Source: Deltaproteobacteria bacterium (GTDB lineage Bacteria > Desulfobacterota > Desulfuromonadia > Desulfuromonadales > BM103). From it: a stretch of 42,705 nucleotides of DNA. The DNA lies in NCBI GenBank assembly GCA_024636215.1, contig JAGXHL010000005.1, positions 1-42,705 on the forward strand. Reading direction: 5' to 3'. The translations under genes were made by a program, and so were the position numbers. Positions 5,799 through 14,066 of the stretch are shown piece by piece; the stretch's first letter is position 1; every line of letters begins with the position of its first letter. The notes below the pieces were generated by a model. The model ran no database searches, was not told the origin of the DNA, and worked only from the letters and a program-made list of their open reading frames with translations.

Positions 5799-8174
5799 TT
5801 AACCATTCTTCGTTCTGGTCGCCAAACCGTCACGCAAAAGTGCTGCCACATCTTCTACCGGTATCGGCTTGCTGAACAGGTAGCCCTGCATCTCATCACA
5901 ATTTTTTTCTCTGAGCATGTCAAACTGCCCTTCTGTTTCAACCCCTTCGGCAATAACCTTGAGGTCAAGGCTGTTGCCCATCGAGATGATCGCACTGGTT
6001 ATCGCCGCATCGGTTGAATTGTTTTCCATATCCCGCACAAAGGTGCGGTCTATCTTCAGGGTGTTCACAGAGAAACGCTTGAGATGAGCAAGAGAGGAAT
6101 AACCGGTGCCGAAATCATCAATAGAGATATGGATCCCCAGTTCACGTAATTGAATCAATATGCTTACTGCAAAATCAGGATTCTGCATGATCACCGTCTC
6201 GGTGACTTCAAACTCCAGACACTCTCCGGCAAGGCCGGTCTCCTTGAGAACAGCTGCAACAGTTGACACGAAATTCTTTGCCTGCAGTTGGTAGCCGCTC
6301 AGGTTAACGGCGACACGAACTTTCGGCAAACCAGCGTCCTGCCATTGTCGATTATCCTGACAGGCCCTTTTCAAGACCCATTCACCGATCGGAATAATCA
6401 GACTGGTTTCCTCGGCCAGAGCAATAAAATCTGCAGGAGTAAGCATGCCAAGTTCAGGATGCTCCCAGCGAATCAGGGCCTCAAGAGCCGTGATCCTGCC
6501 GCTGCCCGAATCGATTTTGGGCTGATAGAAAATACGGAATTCGTCCTTTTCAATCGCGCGGCGCAGACCATTTTCAAGCGTCATCCGCCGCTCAGCATCC
6601 TGGTCCATCGACTGATCATAAACCTGATAATTGTTGCGTCCCTGAGCTTTCGCCTGATACATGGCCGCATCAGCTTTTTTCAACAGACCTTCAGGATTAT
6701 CATCATGGATCGGGTAAAGACTGATACCGATACTCGTCGTAATAAAGAGTTCGTGCTCATCGGCCTGAACAGGTTTGGCAAGGGCCTTGAGGATCTTGCT
6801 TGCAACCTGCTCGGCATCAACCATGTGGTTGAGATTGACGAGCACGACAGAGAATTCATCACCGCCGATACGGGCAACGGTATCAACCTCACGGACACAA
6901 CTGCGTAAACGCTTGCCAACCTCCTGGAGCAGGATGTCGCCAACGGCGTGGCCCAAGGTGTCGTTAATAATCTTGAACCGATCAAGATCCAGATAAAGGA
7001 TGCCGCACTGATGCTTTTCGCGTTTCGCAAGAGCCTGTGCCTGGCCTAAACGGTCTGCAAAATAGAGGCGATTCGGCAAACACGTCAACTGATCATGATG
7101 AGCCATGAAATAGAGTTGTTCCTGAGCTTTTTTACGAGCCGATATATCCCGGCAGATCACCCAGACCGCCCCAGCTTCATCGTTCTGGAAGCTGCAGGTA
7201 ATCGTCCCCTCAACGTCGACAGTTTCTCCAACCTTTGTTTTTAAGCGTCCCTCCAGCGGCTCAATTTCTTCACCTTTGGTGGCTTTCTCAATTTCCGCCA
7301 TACATTTAATTCGCATATCGGCATCAATGACATCTTCAAGTGACATTTCAGAAAGGCGTGAGCGATCATAACCAAGCACACGCTCCCAGGTCCGGTTCGC
7401 ATAGAGGAATTGGCCATCAGGTCTGACGCTGAAGATCAGGTCATTGGCGCCTTCGAGAAATTCTTTGAGTCGGGCTTCGGTTGCCTGAACCTGTTCATGG
7501 CTGCGGCGCAGAATATTCATGAGATAGTTGCTGACCACGGCAGAAATGGTGTTCAGCAGACTCACCCAGAACCACATCAAAACCAGGAAAAAAGCGTGGT
7601 GATGCAAGGCGGAATCAATAAAGGGCATATTGATGTAAGGAATGATATTGAGATACTCACCGGCCAGGACAAAGAAATAACAACCTCCGGCGAAAACCCC
7701 CAGCAGATAAACTTGTGTACGGCTCTCAATCAGGATCGAGGCTTCAAAAGTGACCAGAAGGTAAACCGGCCAGAGCCAGCTGGCCACGCCGCCACTCAAA
7801 TAAACAAGTAGGGTCACGCAAAAATAATCGAGCAAGACCTGCAAGTGACTTCCATAAGGCAGTCGAGAAAGGCGCCTGTGATACACGAAGAAGATTGCGT
7901 TGTAGACCAGGATAAGCAGGACCACCACGACCAGGCCGACCAGCTGCGTGGTACTCAAAAACCAGCCGAAGTCGCTGAACAGGTAACCAACCCCGGCACA
8001 GCTGCCATAGATGGCGACAAAGCCAAGAAAGAGCCAACGGGCCTTGGCAACCAGAATGAACCGCTCGTGAGCTTCAAGCAGGGCTGTCTTCATTTTGTGG
8101 TTGCGTAAATTTTCGCCGAAGCTGTCGACCCAACTTGTTGACGACTCTGGTTTTTCTTGCTCAACACGACTCAT
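5799..8174 (-). CDS. Membrane-bound PAS-GGDEF-EAL c-di-GMP turnover protein
   Basis: This 791-residue protein has an N-terminal membrane region (about 48-220, five to six hydrophobic helices), a PAS domain (about 232-348), a GGDEF domain and an EAL domain. The diguanylate cyclase signature GGDEF is intact at 437-441, with an RxxD inhibitory site (REVD, 428-431) five residues before it. The phosphodiesterase signature EALIRW at 565-570 is also intact, as is the later DDFGTGYSS loop. Both activities could therefore operate, with the PAS and membrane parts sensing a signal. The ATG at 8174 is chosen because a G-rich Shine-Dalgarno-like stretch precedes it; an upstream in-frame ATG at 8201 would add nine residues but has no ribosome site. 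It is a monocistronic gene between a shared terminator and a long intergenic region. Confidence 0.93.
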   Translation of the reverse strand: MSRVEQEKPESSTSWVDSFGENLRNHKMKTALLEAHERFILVAKARWLFLGFVAIYGSCAGVGYLFSDFGWFLSTTQLVGLVVVVLLILVYNAIFFVYHRRLSRLPYGSHLQVLLDYFCVTLLVYLSGGVASWLWPVYLLVTFEASILIESRTQVYLLGVFAGGCYFFVLAGEYLNIIPYINMPFIDSALHHHAFFLVLMWFWVSLLNTISAVVSNYLMNILRRSHEQVQATEARLKEFLEGANDLIFSVRPDGQFLYANRTWERVLGYDRSRLSEMSLEDVIDADMRIKCMAEIEKATKGEEIEPLEGRLKTKVGETVDVEGTITCSFQNDEAGAVWVICRDISARKKAQEQLYFMAHHDQLTCLPNRLYFADRLGQAQALAKREKHQCGILYLDLDRFKIINDTLGHAVGDILLQEVGKRLRSCVREVDTVARIGGDEFSVVLVNLNHMVDAEQVASKILKALAKPVQADEHELFITTSIGISLYPIHDDNPEGLLKKADAAMYQAKAQGRNNYQVYDQSMDQDAERRMTLENGLRRAIEKDEFRIFYQPKIDSGSGRITALEALIRWEHPELGMLTPADFIALAEETSLIIPIGEWVLKRACQDNRQWQDAGLPKVRVAVNLSGYQLQAKNFVSTVAAVLKETGLAGECLEFEVTETVIMQNPDFAVSILIQLRELGIHISIDDFGTGYSSLAHLKRFSVNTLKIDRTFVRDMENNSTDAAITSAIISMGNSLDLKVIAEGVETEGQFDMLREKNCDEMQGYLFSKPIPVEDVAALLRDGLATRTKNG

Positions 8175-8331
8175 TACTGACAAGCCCCCCGTTTCATGCA
8201 TGAGTGGATAAACTCAGGTAATATAAAGAATTTATAAACAAACAGCCAGAAGAAAGTATCATTCAAGGGACCTGTGCCCCTCCCTGATGATTGAATACCG
8301 CTCAGCAGCAATCAAGCATCATCCAGTCCAA

Positions 8332-8657: not shown

Positions 8658-8978
8658 ATGAAAAGTCTAATCAAATCGGTAATCTTTCTAACCCTGGTGA
8701 GCTTCATTGCAACCTCAGCCCTGGCGGCCGAGGGCGGCAACCCGCGTAAGGGCAAGCACCTGTTCAAGAAGACTTGCAAAACCTGTCATTCGAGCGGCGG
8801 CGAGGGTGGTGAAGTCACTCCTATGACCAAGACCCAGTCTCAATGGGACCGCGTCTTCGACAAGAAAAAGCATGATGAAGAGGCATGGAAAAATCTTTCG
8901 GAACAAGACTTGAAAGACATTCAGCAGTTCCTGTATGACCACGCAGCAGACTCTCCTCAGCCTCAGACATGCGGCTAA
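8658..8978 (+). CDS. Periplasmic monoheme c-type cytochrome, first of two sisters
   Basis: The 106-residue protein has a signal peptide (about 1-23, ending ALA) and one heme-attachment motif CKTCH at residues 40-44. It resembles a small class I cytochrome c in layout, with KGKHLFKKTC before the heme. It shares a long C-terminal half with the next gene: QW(D/E)R, a K-H pair, the block YDHAADSPQP, and a final Cys-Gly (Cys105). The only post-heme methionine (TPMTK) is not conserved at the same place in the sister, so a histidine may be the distal heme ligand. GGAGG precedes the ATG. The gene leads a cluster with the second cytochrome (48 bases later) and a porin. It should be an electron carrier; partner and potential are unknown. 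Confidence 0.85.
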   Translation: MKSLIKSVIFLTLVSFIATSALAAEGGNPRKGKHLFKKTCKTCHSSGGEGGEVTPMTKTQSQWDRVFDKKKHDEEAWKNLSEQDLKDIQQFLYDHAADSPQPQTCG

Positions 8979-9032
8979 CCTTGCACAGGAGATCGGGCTT
9001 CGGGTCCAATTCGTTCTGCCGGAGGCTTGACC

Positions 9033-9383
9033 ATGAAAAAAGTGCTTAAATCGCTTAGCTTTTCTTGCCTGGCCCTGCTGTTCGCCGGCCTGCTTTCTGC
9101 CACAGTTGCGCAAGCGGCTATCGAAGGCGGCGACGCCAAGACCGGCAGGACACTGGCGAAGGAGAAATGTAAATATTGTCATCTGTCCGGGTCCTCTGGC
9201 GGCACCATGACGCCGCTCTCCAAGACGCAACGGCAATGGGAACGTTTCTATGCAAAGGACAAGCACAACAAGCTCGCACCAGGGGCCTGGGACAAAATCT
9301 CCTCGAACGAACTCGTCGACATCATGCAGTTTATGTATGACCATGCCGCAGATTCACCTCAACCGGAGACCTGCGGCGAGTAG
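9033..9383 (+). CDS. Periplasmic monoheme c-type cytochrome, second of two sisters
   Basis: The 116-residue protein starts at the ATG at 9033, seven bases after GGAGG (9021-9025); an in-frame TTG at 9027 is too close to that site. A signal peptide ends near AQA, and the heme motif CKYCH is at residues 46-50. It is a tandem paralog of the preceding cytochrome, sharing GG.(M/V)TP, KTQ.QW.R, a K-H pair, YDHAADSPQP and a near-terminal cysteine (Cys114, followed by Gly-Glu). Heme spacing and overall length match the sister. The porin gene starts 28 bases downstream, so the three are probably one transcript. The paired copies may form a heterodimer or serve two partners. Confidence 0.85.
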   Translation: MKKVLKSLSFSCLALLFAGLLSATVAQAAIEGGDAKTGRTLAKEKCKYCHLSGSSGGTMTPLSKTQRQWERFYAKDKHNKLAPGAWDKISSNELVDIMQFMYDHAADSPQPETCGE

Positions 9384-9411
9384 TTTTACTTAATTTTCAG
9401 GAGGAACAACG

Positions 9412-11226
9412 ATGCAGAAATTTCTTTACCTGGCCATGGCGGCGCTGCTGGCTCTGCCTGCAGCCGCCTTCGCGGCACCCCAGGACGACGCCATGATCTC
9501 GGAGCTGCAGAAGCAGATCGAGGAACTCAGCGGCGAACTCGAAGAGCTGTCGGATCGTCTCGACGGCGCTGAACGTCACGCGACACTCGACCGCATTGAA
9601 TTCAGCGGCGATTTACGCGCCAAGGCCCACAGCCTGCATTACCAGGATGTGACATTTAACCCCGGTATCAATGTCAACATGACTGATTTCTTTATGAAAA
9701 TCGGCATGGGACAGCTTGGCGGTTTTAATGCTTTTAACCCCATGTATGGCGACCCAACCGTCACACCGCCAACGTTTATTGATGGCTCGTTGAATCCCAG
9801 CGCACTGGATAATATGTTCTTCGGCCTGGCCGCAACCAACCCACAGCTGTATAACGGCTTACTTCAAGCAATTGGCGGCTTTGACCCAATGAACCCTGCA
9901 ACCCACCCGGGTGTCATGATCTTCCCCATGGGACAGAGAGACACCTACGACATCAACAACGACATTTTCTACACCTCACGCCTGCGCCTGAACATGAAGG
10001 CCGATGTCTGGGACAACGTCAAGTTCTCCGGCCGCCTGCTGATGTTCAAAAACTGGGGCGACTCCACCGGTTCTCAGGTCTTTGATTCCTGGAACAGGTT
10101 CACCATGGACGCCACCAACAGTGGCAACACCACCGGCGACGTCGTTCGCGTAGACCGGGCTTATTTTGACTGGAGCAATATCGCTGACAGCGGCTTCTAC
10201 CTCTCGATCGGTCGTCGTCCCTCCACAGGCGGTCCGCCACTGCATTTCCGTGAAAACGAATTGCGCGGCGGCACCCCGACCGGCAACGTCATGAGCCTGA
10301 ATTTCGATGGTATCACCATTGGTCGCAATATTGAGGACTGGACCGGCATTGAAGGTATGGTTGCCCGTTTCTGTTACGGTCAAGGCTTTGAATCGGAGTG
10401 GGGCAATGGCGAGATGTTCAACGAGATCGTCACCAAAGACACCCATTTTGCCGGCTTCAACATTGACATCCTTAACGACGGCACCAACTTCCTGCAGATG
10501 ACCGCTTTCAGAGCCATGGATCTCAACGACGGCTTCAAAGGGGTGATTGCCTTCCCGACCCAGTACGGTGCCATGTTTGCTCCGACCCTTTATAATGACA
10601 TGCAGAAGTTCCCCAACTTCAACTTTGTCACCCGGGTACAGCCCAGCGTCACGGTCGGTGACATCGACCTCGGTGGGGTTGTTTTCTCTCGCCAGGAGGA
10701 CAACGGCATCAACTGGTTTGTTTCCGGTGGCATGACCATCCTGAGACCAAACAACAACGCCGGCATGTTCGGCGGCATGGGCAGTGACGCAATCTTCGAA
10801 GCTCAACTCAACTCTACCGGGTCGGAAGTTATTATGGCCCCTGTGGTTGCCACTAAAGCTGACGATGAAGAAGGTTTCGGCTTCTTCGCCGGTGTTCAGG
10901 TGCCTGCCCCAATGGGTAAGTTTGGCCTGGAATACAACTACGGCTCCGAGTACTGGACGCCTTTCAGCCAGGCTCAGGATGACGCCCTTGGCAGCAAAAT
11001 TGCCACCCGCGGTCATGTCGGCGAAGCATACTATATTTTCGACATCAATCCACGTATGTTCATCAAGATTGCCGGCCTCTACTACGACTTTGAGTATACC
11101 GGCAGCGGCTCACCGGTTGGCAAGCCGCAAAAAGTTGACGACGTCAAGGACGGCAAGGCTTACTCGCTGATGCCGGTTGTCGACACCGCGTACGATCTGA
11201 ATGCTTCACTGACCGTACAGTTCTAA
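9412..11226 (+). CDS. Large outer-membrane porin, DUF3373-like, with N-terminal coiled coil
   Basis: The 604-residue protein has a signal peptide (about 1-22, ending FAA). A short heptad-rich coiled coil follows (about 27-57, ISELQKQIEELSGELEEL), and then a long beta-rich region ends in a C-terminal phenylalanine (LTVQF), as expected for a BAM-inserted barrel. Repeated segments such as GRLLMFKNWGDS, DRAYFDWSNI and FYLSIGRRPS are typical of the DUF3373 putative porins of Geobacter relatives, which often lie beside cytochrome genes. The family name is from memory. AGGAGG precedes the ATG. The gene follows the two monoheme cytochromes and is closed by a strong terminator before the octaheme cytochrome gene. 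It probably passes a small solute, or anchors the cytochromes; there is no MtrA-like partner here. Confidence 0.82.
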   Translation: MQKFLYLAMAALLALPAAAFAAPQDDAMISELQKQIEELSGELEELSDRLDGAERHATLDRIEFSGDLRAKAHSLHYQDVTFNPGINVNMTDFFMKIGMGQLGGFNAFNPMYGDPTVTPPTFIDGSLNPSALDNMFFGLAATNPQLYNGLLQAIGGFDPMNPATHPGVMIFPMGQRDTYDINNDIFYTSRLRLNMKADVWDNVKFSGRLLMFKNWGDSTGSQVFDSWNRFTMDATNSGNTTGDVVRVDRAYFDWSNIADSGFYLSIGRRPSTGGPPLHFRENELRGGTPTGNVMSLNFDGITIGRNIEDWTGIEGMVARFCYGQGFESEWGNGEMFNEIVTKDTHFAGFNIDILNDGTNFLQMTAFRAMDLNDGFKGVIAFPTQYGAMFAPTLYNDMQKFPNFNFVTRVQPSVTVGDIDLGGVVFSRQEDNGINWFVSGGMTILRPNNNAGMFGGMGSDAIFEAQLNSTGSEVIMAPVVATKADDEEGFGFFAGVQVPAPMGKFGLEYNYGSEYWTPFSQAQDDALGSKIATRGHVGEAYYIFDINPRMFIKIAGLYYDFEYTGSGSPVGKPQKVDDVKDGKAYSLMPVVDTAYDLNASLTVQF

Positions 11227-11242
11227 AGTCAGTCTGTTTAGC

Positions 11243-11276
11243 CGGGGGAGAGGCTCCACCTCTCCCCCGTTTATTT
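11243..11276 (+). terminator. Rho-independent terminator after the porin
   Basis: A perfect 11-bp stem (CGGGGGAGAGG at 11243-11253 with CCTCTCCCCCG at 11259-11269), a five-base loop and TTTATTT. It separates the cytochrome-porin transcript from the octaheme cytochrome gene. Confidence 0.93.
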
Positions 11277-11305
11277 GACTATATTGATCAATATATCGAT
11301 ATATT
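11275..11305 (+). promoter_or_regulatory. Promoter region of the octaheme cytochrome with two stacked palindromes
   Basis: TTGACT at 11275-11280 is a good -35, and TATATT at 11300-11305 is a possible -10 at a long 19-bp spacing. A perfect 16-bp palindrome (TATATTGATCAATATA, 11280-11295) and a perfect 14-bp palindrome (ATATATCGATATAT, 11291-11304) fill the spacer and overlap each other. A long spacer filled by dyad symmetry is seen at MerR-type promoters, but an FNR/CRP-type or other dimeric regulator is equally possible. AT-rich sequence makes small palindromes more likely by chance. Confidence 0.45.
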
Positions 11306-11381
11306 ATGTTGCCCTGTCAACGCTACGTTTTATGTTGAACCGTTTAAAAAATACCAACCAACAACTTCAAGGAGAGACCCC

Positions 11382-12770
11382 ATGAAAAAAGCGTTTATGT
11401 CAGGCGTTCTCTGCAGCGTCCTGCTACTCGCCCTGACCGCAGCCACTGCACTGGCTGCAGAAAACGACCACTCATACTTCCTTCAGGGCCCTCTTGAAAC
11501 GGGACCGGAAGTCACCGCAAAGTGTTTGAACTGCCATGAGAAGCACGCCGAAGACTTCATGAAGACCACTCACTGGACCTGGGCCCAGGAACAAATGGTC
11601 GATGGCAAGCAAGTCACTCGTGGCAAGAAAAACGCCATTAACAATTTCTGCACCTCGATTGCCGGCAACGAACCACGCTGCACCAGCTGCCATGCGGGCT
11701 ACGGCTGGACGGATTCCAGCTTCGACTTCACCGCTTCCGGCAACATCGACTGCCTGGTCTGTCACGACACTACCGGAACCTACGTTAAAGAGGCCACCGG
11801 AGCAGGCAACCCTGCCAAGCGTGTCGATCTGGTTTATGTCGCCCAGAGCGTCGGCAAGCCGAGCCGCTTCAACTGCGGCACCTGCCACTTTTATGGTGGG
11901 GGCGGCGACGCGGTCAAGCATGGCGACCTGGATTCATCCATTGAATACCCCACACGTTCTGTAGACGTCCATATGGATGCTGATGGCAATGACTTCGCCT
12001 GCACGGAGTGCCACGTCACAGAAGCTCACGCGATTCCCGGCAATTCGCTGGGTGTTTCGCCGGGCGGGACGACTCATTTCTCCTGTGCCAAGTGCCACGA
12101 AGAGGCTCCTCATGCCCAGAGCAGGCTGAACAAGCACGCAGAAGACATCTCCTGCCAGACCTGCCATATCCCTTTCTTTGCCAAGGAAGTTCCCACCAAG
12201 CTTTCCTGGGACTGGTCAACAGCAGGTCAGGATATCGAGGCTCCCGTTGATGAGAACGGCAAACACTCTTACAACAAGAAGAAAGGTCACTTCACCTGGG
12301 GCAAGATGGTGACACCCAAATACCTCTGGTACAACGGCAGCGCTGACGCTTACAATCCCGGTGAGAAAATGGATCCAACAAAAATCACTTACCTGACCTA
12401 CCCGAATGGCGACATCAAGGATGAGACGGCGAAAATCCATCCATTCAAACTCCATTCTGGCAAGCAGATCTATGACTCAAAGAACAATTATTTCATCACC
12501 GCCAAGGTGTTCGGTGACGGTGGCTACTGGGTCGATTATGACTGGGATAAGGCAGCACGTCTCGGTATGGAGGCCAGTGGTCTCAGCTACAGCGGTGAAT
12601 TTGGTTTTGCCCCGACAGAGATGTACTGGAGCATCAACCACATGGTCTCTCCCAAGGAAGAGTCTCTGGGATGCCTCGACTGCCACGGCGATAATGGCCG
12701 TATGCAGTGGCAGGATCTTGGTTACCAGGGTGACCCGATGGACAACCCCAAGTTCGCGCGATCCAAATAA
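11382..12770 (+). CDS. Octaheme c-type cytochrome of the tetrathionate reductase (OTR) family
   Basis: The 462-residue protein has a signal peptide (about 1-25) and eight CxxCH motifs, at residues 48, 100, 124, 165, 207, 235, 258 and 431, matching octaheme tetrathionate reductase. Shewanella OTR reduces tetrathionate and also nitrite and hydroxylamine in vitro. Its catalytic heme has a lysine ligand and nearby Asn, Cys and Asp residues. The same arrangement appears here as NNFC (Asn87, Cys90) before the second heme, and DAVK (Asp176, Lys179) after the fourth. This correspondence is from memory of the Shewanella structure. It should be a soluble periplasmic enzyme. It has its own promoter region and terminator but lies directly behind the monoheme cytochrome-porin operon, whose products could feed it electrons or substrate. 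The physiological substrate is not determined by sequence. Confidence 0.92.
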   Translation: MKKAFMSGVLCSVLLLALTAATALAAENDHSYFLQGPLETGPEVTAKCLNCHEKHAEDFMKTTHWTWAQEQMVDGKQVTRGKKNAINNFCTSIAGNEPRCTSCHAGYGWTDSSFDFTASGNIDCLVCHDTTGTYVKEATGAGNPAKRVDLVYVAQSVGKPSRFNCGTCHFYGGGGDAVKHGDLDSSIEYPTRSVDVHMDADGNDFACTECHVTEAHAIPGNSLGVSPGGTTHFSCAKCHEEAPHAQSRLNKHAEDISCQTCHIPFFAKEVPTKLSWDWSTAGQDIEAPVDENGKHSYNKKKGHFTWGKMVTPKYLWYNGSADAYNPGEKMDPTKITYLTYPNGDIKDETAKIHPFKLHSGKQIYDSKNNYFITAKVFGDGGYWVDYDWDKAARLGMEASGLSYSGEFGFAPTEMYWSINHMVSPKEESLGCLDCHGDNGRMQWQDLGYQGDPMDNPKFARSK

Positions 12771-13100: not shown

Positions 13101-13298
13101 ATGTTCGGACTTGGTACAACAGAGCTGATAATCATCCTGGTACTTGTCATGATTATATTCGGTGCCGGTAAATTGCCCCAGGTCGGTGGTGCGTTGGGTA
13201 AAGGCCTGCGCAACTTCAAGGACGGAGTCAAGGAAGGCAACGAAGAAAAGTCTGAAGGGGAACCTGATAAACTCGACAACAAAGACCAGGACAAATAG
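13101..13298 (+). CDS. tatA: Sec-independent protein translocase subunit TatA/E
   Basis: The 65-residue protein forms the pore component of the twin-arginine translocase, which exports folded proteins. It has the family layout: a short N-terminal membrane helix (ELIIILVLVMIIFG, about 8-21), the FGAGKLPQ hinge with the conserved Phe-Gly, an amphipathic helix (VGGALGKGLRNFKDGVKEG), and a charged tail. AAGGAG precedes the ATG. tatB and tatC are not in the window, so they must be encoded elsewhere. A shared terminator separates it from the convergent OmpA-like gene. Confidence 0.95.
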   Translation: MFGLGTTELIIILVLVMIIFGAGKLPQVGGALGKGLRNFKDGVKEGNEEKSEGEPDKLDNKDQDK

Positions 13299-13397: not shown

Positions 13398-14066
13398 TCA
13401 ATAGGTCGCACCCTGCTGAGGCGCGATGGTAACGACCACCCGGCGATTCAACTGACGCCCGGCTTCCGTCGCATTGTCAGCAATCGGTTGACCTTCACCA
13501 TAACCGATCACCTGCATGCGCGAAGCATCGACACCCTGACTGGCCAGAGCATTCTTAACGCTTAAACCGCGACGTTCGGAAAGTGACTGGTTGTAGGTTT
13601 CAGATCCGCTGCTGTCGGTATGACCAGCGATCTGCATTGTCGTCTGCGGGTACTCGACCAGGACCCTGGCGACACGATTGATCTCCGAATAGGCTCCGGG
13701 CTTTAAGGTTGCCGAATTAACATCGAAGAGGACATCACTCTTGAAAGTAACCGCCAGGAGCTCTTCATTGCGTTGAATATTAACCGCCTCACTCGTAGCA
13801 AACTGCTGACGAAGGGCCTTTTCCTGATTATCCATATACCGGCCGATAGAGCCACCGGTAACGCCTCCAAGGGCGGCCCCGATACCGGCTCCGATTAGAG
13901 TCGACTCGGTGTTGCCGCCAATCGCCTGGCCCAATCCGGCGCCAACGGCAGCACCGATACCGGTGCCATAGAGTGCACCCTTTTGAGTTTTATTCTGAGG
14001 CGCTGCACAACCCCAGAGCGTTACCATAACCAGAGCCAGGATAGACATTCGTTTAAACATAAGCAT
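13398..14066 (-). CDS. OmpA-family lipoprotein with glycine-zipper domain
   Basis: The 222-residue protein has a type II signal peptide with lipobox LWGC near residues 17-20. A glycine-zipper region (about 30-75, repeated GIGAAVGAGLG and GAGIGAALGG) is followed by a C-terminal OmpA-like peptidoglycan-binding domain (about 105-215). That domain contains LFDVNSATLKP, the HTDSSG loop, LSERRG and GYGEGQP, which bind diaminopimelate in family members. The layout matches YiaD-like lipoproteins that tie the outer membrane to the cell wall. GGGAG lies eight bases before the ATG at 14066. It is a single gene with its own promoter and a shared terminator. Confidence 0.92.
   Translation of the reverse strand: MLMFKRMSILALVMVTLWGCAAPQNKTQKGALYGTGIGAAVGAGLGQAIGGNTESTLIGAGIGAALGGVTGGSIGRYMDNQEKALRQQFATSEAVNIQRNEELLAVTFKSDVLFDVNSATLKPGAYSEINRVARVLVEYPQTTMQIAGHTDSSGSETYNQSLSERRGLSVKNALASQGVDASRMQVIGYGEGQPIADNATEAGRQLNRRVVVTIAPQQGATY

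Follow-up and report, generated by a model that had tools for sequence, protein, structure and literature searches.

A monoheme cytochrome–DUF3373 porin pair in desulfuromonads and Shewanella, with the octaheme protein OTR as an exchangeable neighbour

The window analysed here is a stretch of 42,705 nucleotides from a deltaproteobacterial genome assigned to the Desulfuromonadales (assembly GCA_024636215.1, contig JAGXHL010000005.1, positions 1 to 42,705), and the system in question is a run of genes at positions 8658 to 12770. An earlier note on this DNA had described two sister monoheme cytochromes, a 604-residue DUF3373 porin and an eight-heme cytochrome of the OTR (octaheme tetrathionate reductase) family in one run, and all four are indeed present on the forward strand. 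The genes, together with two cysteine codons and a hairpin that are discussed below, are as follows.

8658..8978, forward strand: Mono1, an exported monoheme c-type cytochrome of 106 residues with the heme motif CKTCH, ending in PQPQTCG
8970..8972, forward strand: codon of Mono1 Cys105, the penultimate residue
9033..9383, forward strand: Mono2, a sister monoheme cytochrome of 116 residues with an ATG start, ending in PQPETCGE
9412..11226, forward strand: DUF3373 protein, a predicted outer-membrane barrel (TC 1.B.62 type), 604 residues, its sole cysteine, Cys321, in RFCYGQGFES
10372..10374, forward strand: codon of porin Cys321
11243..11269, forward strand: terminator-like hairpin in the porin–OTR spacer, 11 pairs followed by TTTATTT
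11382..12770, forward strand: OTR-family octaheme cytochrome (TIGR04315), 462 residues, eight CxxCH motifs

The octaheme protein scores 610 bits against TIGR04315 (cut-off 375) and aligns with the solved Shewanella OTR, 1sp3, at 665 bits over residues 28–457. All counts of OTR loci given here are based on the best 80 of 125 loci. Eight CxxCH motifs are found in the window protein and in 79 of the 80 fetched loci. Lys82, Lys179 and Cys90 of the window protein align with Lys56, Lys153 and Cys64 of 1sp3, Lys153 being presumably a lysine ligand of OTR; the columns of Lys56 and Lys153 hold lysine in the window and in all 80 loci, and the candidates for ligands and active site as a whole are kept in 79–80 of the 80. 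Lys56 is named as the heme 2 ligand of OTR (PMC3769277; this and the other papers cited are represented here by excerpts). The porin matches DUF3373 (PF11853) at 443 bits, with a cut-off of 26.1, and by eye it has a signal peptide-like start, a heptad-like stretch near the N-terminus and a C-terminal Phe. Sequence searches gave a single plausible solved relative, the 50 kDa outer membrane protein 10aw, which is remote (67.5 bits) and which we take to be Omp50 of Campylobacter.

Mono1 has one CxxCH motif and matches the Cytochrome_CBB3 profile at 35.7 bits, and Mono2 reaches 23.7 bits, below the Pfam cut-off of 27. The list of open reading frames starts Mono2 at a TTG at position 9027; the ATG at 9033 is better, and translation most likely begins there. 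The two cytochromes are 53% identical, and a duplicated cytochrome (two copies) is found in 5 of 11 close loci. Judged from the sequences, Mono2 arose by a local duplication that only some close relatives share. The predicted structure of the cytochrome is poor (mean predicted local distance difference test score, pLDDT, 69.7, with the last three residues below 50), and the model was used solely to note that the tail is without predicted structure.

Conservation of gene order across relatives had been proposed as a check in the earlier note, and the order is conserved. A cytochrome, a porin and OTR stand in the same order and on the same strand in 15 of 22 desulfuromonad-like loci, in 15 of 15 Shewanella loci and in none of the 43 other OTR loci (at least 2.6 kb of upstream sequence is present in 20, 15 and 32 loci, respectively; the group names "desulfuromonad-like" and "Desulfobulbales" are our own labels, assigned by the titles of the records and the names of their proteins). 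The single one of the 43 that has a porin has the porin alone. Across 77 Shewanella genomes, a sample from a larger group, porin, OTR and cytochrome are present in the identical 54 genomes and are collinear in 54 of 54. Collinearity was assessed with the best row per gene in these 54 genomes, omitting the second pieces of the split G083 porin and the split G117 OTR as well as five OTR rows under the cut-off. Broken copies, either split or with a stop, are the porin of G083, the OTR of G117 and the cytochrome of G118.

A finer picture comes from 58 relatives of genome G002, in which the porin is present in 39, OTR above its cut-off in 31 and the cytochrome in 44. The cytochrome (E ≤ 1e-8) occurs in 38 of the 39 DUF3373 genomes (Fisher test, p ~1e-7, uncorrected for kinship). 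The neighbour counts include every porin (40), cytochrome (66) and molybdoenzyme (13) row and 36 of the 45 OTR rows, nine rows under the family cut-off being dropped. The cytochrome lies directly upstream of the porin in 34 of the 40 porin matches. Downstream of the porin we found OTR in 19 cases, a molybdoenzyme in 9, neither in 12 and both in none; at least three of the porins with neither are at contig ends (G023, G031, G051). The conserved core is the cytochrome–porin pair, and OTR is its exchangeable neighbour. Of the functional unit proposed in the earlier note, the conserved gene set stands, but OTR is not its centre: the pair is also kept where OTR is missing, and in 9 of 40 cases the gene after the porin encodes a Psr/Phs-like molybdoenzyme.

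Other arrangements around OTR were also observed. At L123 (2645–4385), a cytochrome of this family, ending in PQLCG, directly adjoins OTR with no porin between them, and elsewhere in that genome (G193) a DUF3373 gene is followed by a cytochrome of its own (L124). An open reading frame with six or more hemes lies downstream of OTR in 12 of the 43 loci outside the desulfuromonad-like and Shewanella groups. At L058 (6216–8780), OTR is directly followed by a large protein that combines seven hemes with a cytochrome b561 domain at its C-terminus, and proteins of similar size and heme count follow OTR in several other phyla.

The place in which OTR and the molybdoenzyme alternate is framed by neighbours that are kept in relatives.

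5799..8201, reverse strand: PAS-GGDEF-EAL protein, left-hand neighbour retained in several relatives
13101..13298, forward strand: tatA, conserved right-hand neighbour that frames the exchange slot
13398..14066, reverse strand: OmpA-type lipoprotein (YiaD-like), right-hand neighbour retained in many relatives

The PAS-GGDEF-EAL gene and a rubrerythrin gene (5140) form the left flank of the module, and to the right of tatA and the lipoprotein gene lie two genes, presumably gatC and gatA, whose positions are kept in relatives. The absence of a quinol oxidase and of an MtrA-like decaheme partner, as claimed earlier, holds for the eight proteins scanned from the rubrerythrin (5140) to the OmpA-type lipoprotein (13398). 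The molybdopterin, Fe-S and NrfD subunits of PsrABC/PhsABC are likewise not found among these eight proteins.

In relatives, the molybdoenzyme gene lies between the porin and tatA–ompA (L090, L091) or between the porin and tatA (L084), with other genes interspersed, and this is the place that OTR has in the window. The best family match of the molybdoenzyme is PhsA, at 516–535 bits in the three that were tested, which is below the cut-off of 694; a further best match is the Thermus thiosulfate reductase 2vpw, at 408 bits. It has a twin-arginine-like start by eye, and the neighbours confirmed by type are an Fe-S protein (L086) and an NrfD subunit (PF03916, L090). In L087, L089 and L092, the pair has neither OTR nor a molybdoenzyme next to it and stands directly before tatA. 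Three changes of the downstream gene are enough on the porin tree, a quick tree with several weak forks.

The spacer between porin and OTR contains the strongest terminator-like site, the hairpin at 11243–11269; nine such sites were found, compared with 5.5 in shuffles. Of 17 desulfuromonad-type spacers including that of the window, 14 have a strong hairpin ahead of a T run (13 of 16 in the relatives), with weak test values for L007 and L037 and none for L009. The Shewanella spacers (n = 15) measure about 14–54 bases, and several of them fold, with a strong hairpin before a T run only in L020. Two overlapping 16-base palindromes at 11280–11305, between the hairpin and OTR, were dropped as a candidate, as neither turned up in the relatives' spacers. 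Since the hairpin recurs in relatives, the four genes perhaps do not form one simple transcript, and the "operon" of the earlier note fits the first three genes, with OTR perhaps separate behind the terminator-like hairpin. This raises the alternative of two independent units, in which the pair would have a role of its own and OTR would merely lie downstream under its own promoter. The hairpin, the three loci (L087, L089, L092) in which the pair adjoins neither enzyme and the many loci with OTR and no porin are consistent with such an arrangement; the perfect joint presence of the genes in Shewanella, collinear in all 54 genomes that have them, and the short spacers measured there argue against it, and we regard it as unlikely.

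The gene contexts also bear on the substrate. At L102, a Sulf_transp protein (162 bits) is encoded between the porin and the cytochrome. In two loci titled Ignavibacteria, the genes after OTR encode cytochrome b561, Sulf_transp and Sulf_transp–Rhodanese (L080, 1984–4450) or Sulf_transp and Sulf_transp–Rhodanese (L078, 10235–11956); the arrangement in these two loci looks like a different, self-contained OTR system. No nitrogen gene was found among the neighbours identified, most neighbours being without identification. Sulfur-related neighbours and a sulfur-reductase-type enzyme in the same slot therefore favour a sulfur compound over nitrite as the natural substrate. The earlier suggestion of a periplasmic reductase served by an outer-membrane barrel of its own is reasonable, and an oxyanion or some other sulfur substrate would agree with the sulfur-related neighbours. 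In Shewanella oneidensis, SO4142 and SO4144 (locus tags, SO_4144 being OTR) rise together in one data set, and SO4142 is listed under thiosulfate reduction (PMC5955497), although such expression evidence is thin.

The neighbours suggest, rather than prove, a sulfur substrate, because OTR reduces nitrite and hydroxylamine in vitro. The in vitro activities of the Shewanella OTR and its partner STC (PMC4484225) would suit a detoxification of nitrite or hydroxylamine by OTR with a general porin beside it, as would the joint rise of napA, napB and otr, which goes along with that of sulfite-reduction genes (PMC5955497). We consider detoxification improbable, given that no nitrogen gene is among the identified neighbours, that the enzyme which can take the place of OTR belongs to a sulfur-reductase type and that sulfur transporters accompany OTR in the two Ignavibacteria-titled loci tested. 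STC, a tetraheme cytochrome, binds OTR weakly (dissociation constant ~1.6 mM by nuclear magnetic resonance), and the pairs tested in the excerpt of that study include no monoheme (PMC4484225).

Both members of the cytochrome–porin pair carry a conserved cysteine. Cys105 is the sole non-heme cysteine of Mono1, and in 53 of 53 loci the cytochrome ends in TCG or in TCG plus one residue. In 51 of the 53 this C-terminal Cys is the only cysteine of the mature part beyond the heme pair, with one extra in L082 and in L084. Database homologues were taken from lists of the best 120 of 1029, 336 and 1102 matches, and for the lists of 1029 and 1102 only candidates sharing most words were scored. Among the matches listed, 119 of 120 cytochrome homologues have the TCG end, and the exception, P0221, looks broken. 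All 40 aligned sequences have the porin Cys of RFCYGQGF, as do all 240 database homologues among the matches listed, and 236 of these 240 have no further cysteine after residue 30. In contrast, the alignment places an Ala of 10aw at the column where the cytochrome-linked porins have Cys.

The two cysteines also co-vary. In a divergent clade (L109–L118), the cytochrome tails are AAIPK-like and the porin column is not cysteine. Among 60 informative linked pairs (62 in all, the truncated porins L095 and L096 being uninformative), both cysteines are present in 50, neither in 10 and one without the other in none. If L095 and L096 are scored as Cys-less, the porin requires three changes and the cytochrome one; if they are excluded, the Cys-less porins are one group. 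As the ten Cys-less porins form one clade, they represent one evolutionary event, not many. Beside some divergent cytochrome–porin pairs, at L103 (12–1382) and L104 (1884–3305), lie chemoreceptor genes with a CZB zinc-binding domain.

Dependence of the Cys on linkage to a cytochrome was considered and dropped, as stand-alone DUF3373 proteins keep it in 20 of 20 fetched loci and in 120 of 120 among the matches listed. The Acidobacteria-titled L038 porin keeps it as well. Many of the genomes with stand-alone DUF3373 have an unlinked cytochrome, and the C-terminus of all 19 that were recovered is Cys-Gly or Cys. Over 57 genomes, DUF3373 is present in 44 and a related cytochrome in 31, and the two co-occur beyond expectation (Fisher test, p = 0.0017, uncorrected for kinship). 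Besides a C-terminal Cys-Gly (Cys alone in one of them), the unlinked monohemes of L149–L165, L167 and L168 have two extra cysteines that are conserved, at residues 37 and 99 in L149.

This pattern suggests that the C-terminal Cys of the cytochrome and the Cys of the porin may form a mixed disulfide, which would yield a redox-controlled gate or a one-heme conduit serving interchangeable periplasmic sulfur reductases. We offer the disulfide tentatively and regard it as doubtful. It is a proposal and not a result, because no such cytochrome was detected at the thresholds used in 15 of the 44 genomes with DUF3373 (G178 is included, and G142 and G191 have porin fragments only) and because the Cys-less pairs are a single clade and count as one event.

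Other roles of the C-terminal Cys can be envisaged. As a distal heme ligand it was set aside as first choice, a loop His being present in 42 of 43 aligned cytochromes and, by reading, also in the ten Cys-less ones. The L084 cytochrome (8823–9140) is the sole one of the 43 without the distal-loop His and has Cys instead. In the unlinked cytochromes, where Cys99 is near the loop-His position by eye, Cys may be a distal ligand. C-terminal cysteines of DsrC and SoxY act as sulfur carriers, and the cytochrome tail could similarly be an arm that is loaded with sulfane or thiosulfonate for the neighbouring reductase. Such an arm is compatible with a Cys-Gly on a tail without predicted structure in 53 of 53 loci, with the Cys ends of the unlinked relatives (19 of 19 recovered) and with the sulfur-related neighbours. 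However, the likeness to DsrC and SoxY comes without demonstrated homology, and the loss of the porin Cys alongside the cytochrome Cys stays unexplained by it. We find a sulfur-carrying role quite improbable.

What the sequences show directly is the order of the genes, the replacement of one enzyme by another in a single slot, the presence of neighbours related to sulfur and the pattern of the cysteines. On the whole we give an even chance to a module of the outer membrane that would handle a sulfur compound (tetrathionate, thiosulfate or polysulfide) and would consist of a barrel, a cytochrome and an exchangeable periplasmic reductase. The DUF3373 barrel would carry the sulfur compound across the outer membrane, and the monoheme cytochrome would sit at the periplasmic mouth of the barrel as a local electron carrier or a redox-responsive plug. 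Reduction would take place in the periplasm by the enzyme encoded next door, which is OTR in the window and in Shewanella and a Psr/Phs-like molybdoenzyme in other desulfuromonads, with electrons flowing to it by way of the monohemes.

Several observations weigh against this module. Outside the desulfuromonad-like and Shewanella groups, the porin is absent from 42 of 43 OTR loci (upstream sequence is shorter than 2.6 kb in 11 of these 43), and in the relatives of G002 it is missing upstream in 17 of 36 strong OTR matches (G023 and G058 are at contig starts). Transcription of OTR in the window may be partly uncoupled from that of the porin, and nitrite and hydroxylamine are substrates of the Shewanella OTR in vitro (PMC4484225). 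In the Shewanella literature, SO4142 overproduction appears in a plasmid list, but the excerpt counts that strain neither with the improved nor with the impaired ones (PMC8524038). Expression of SO4142 on an electrode is below that with Fe(III) (PMC3271074), and SO_4142 is tied to taxis toward low-potential minerals in PMC5789149, two tables of which label it differently, as octaheme and as monoheme.

Some of these data touch on a further alternative, a two-part electron conduit in which the cytochrome would plug the barrel, electrons would cross the outer membrane and OTR or the molybdoenzyme would be the periplasmic partner. The tight pairing of one monoheme with one barrel, the co-varying cysteines and the analogy with the fused cytochrome–porin Cyc2, which is thought to conduct via one heme, are consistent with a conduit. 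However, the genes are separate, no extracellular cytochrome was seen nearby and the partner enzymes use soluble compounds. In addition, SO4142 overproduction is not among the strains with altered methyl orange reduction in the excerpt of PMC8524038, and SO4142 is down on the electrode (PMC3271074). A conduit thus appears distinctly unlikely.

The sulfur module would matter for OTR itself, the structure and in vitro activities of which are known while its natural substrate is without agreement; its physiological role or substrate is called open in PMC4335978 and PMC4837345. A sulfur-reductase-type enzyme in the place of OTR and sulfur transporters beside OTR in another phylum lead to a direct genetic prediction. 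We found no description of the cytochrome–DUF3373 pair as a unit in a literature search that had most subscription journals outside it, and no paper on SO4143 together with Shewanella. The pair looks like an undescribed outer-membrane module that is present in tractable Shewanella. A covalent link between cytochrome and porin, if true, would represent a novel means by which a pore of the outer membrane is coupled to redox state.

Among known systems, Cyc2 is a fused cytochrome–porin that oxidises iron. It shares with the pair the concept of one monoheme domain and one outer-membrane barrel; Cyc2 is one polypeptide, whereas the window has separate open reading frames, with no homology shown. 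MtrAB and related porin–cytochrome complexes likewise have a barrel encoded with a c-type cytochrome, but MtrAB needs a partner of about ten hemes, and the window has two monohemes and an OTR-family octaheme with a barrel of the DUF3373 type. A relative of PsrABC/PhsABC stands behind the same cytochrome–porin pair, in the place of OTR (for example in L086, L090 and L091), although the molybdoenzyme of these relatives is under the PhsA cut-off. For DUF3373 itself, the Transporter Classification (TC) family 1.B.62 is given as a putative outer-membrane pore family with 18 strands in a table row of PMC4827864, and that row mentions neither a function nor a pairing with a monoheme cytochrome. A Shewanella oneidensis MR-1 homologue, P0094, is 60% identical and is also named DUF3373. 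A close parallel is the Shewanella oneidensis OTR, SO_4144 (1sp3), which also has eight hemes, a similar length, the lysine ligand candidates and Cys64. In Shewanella genomes with OTR, the cytochrome and porin precede it as in the window. Unlike the Shewanella locus, the window has a hairpin that splits the porin from OTR and a duplicated cytochrome.

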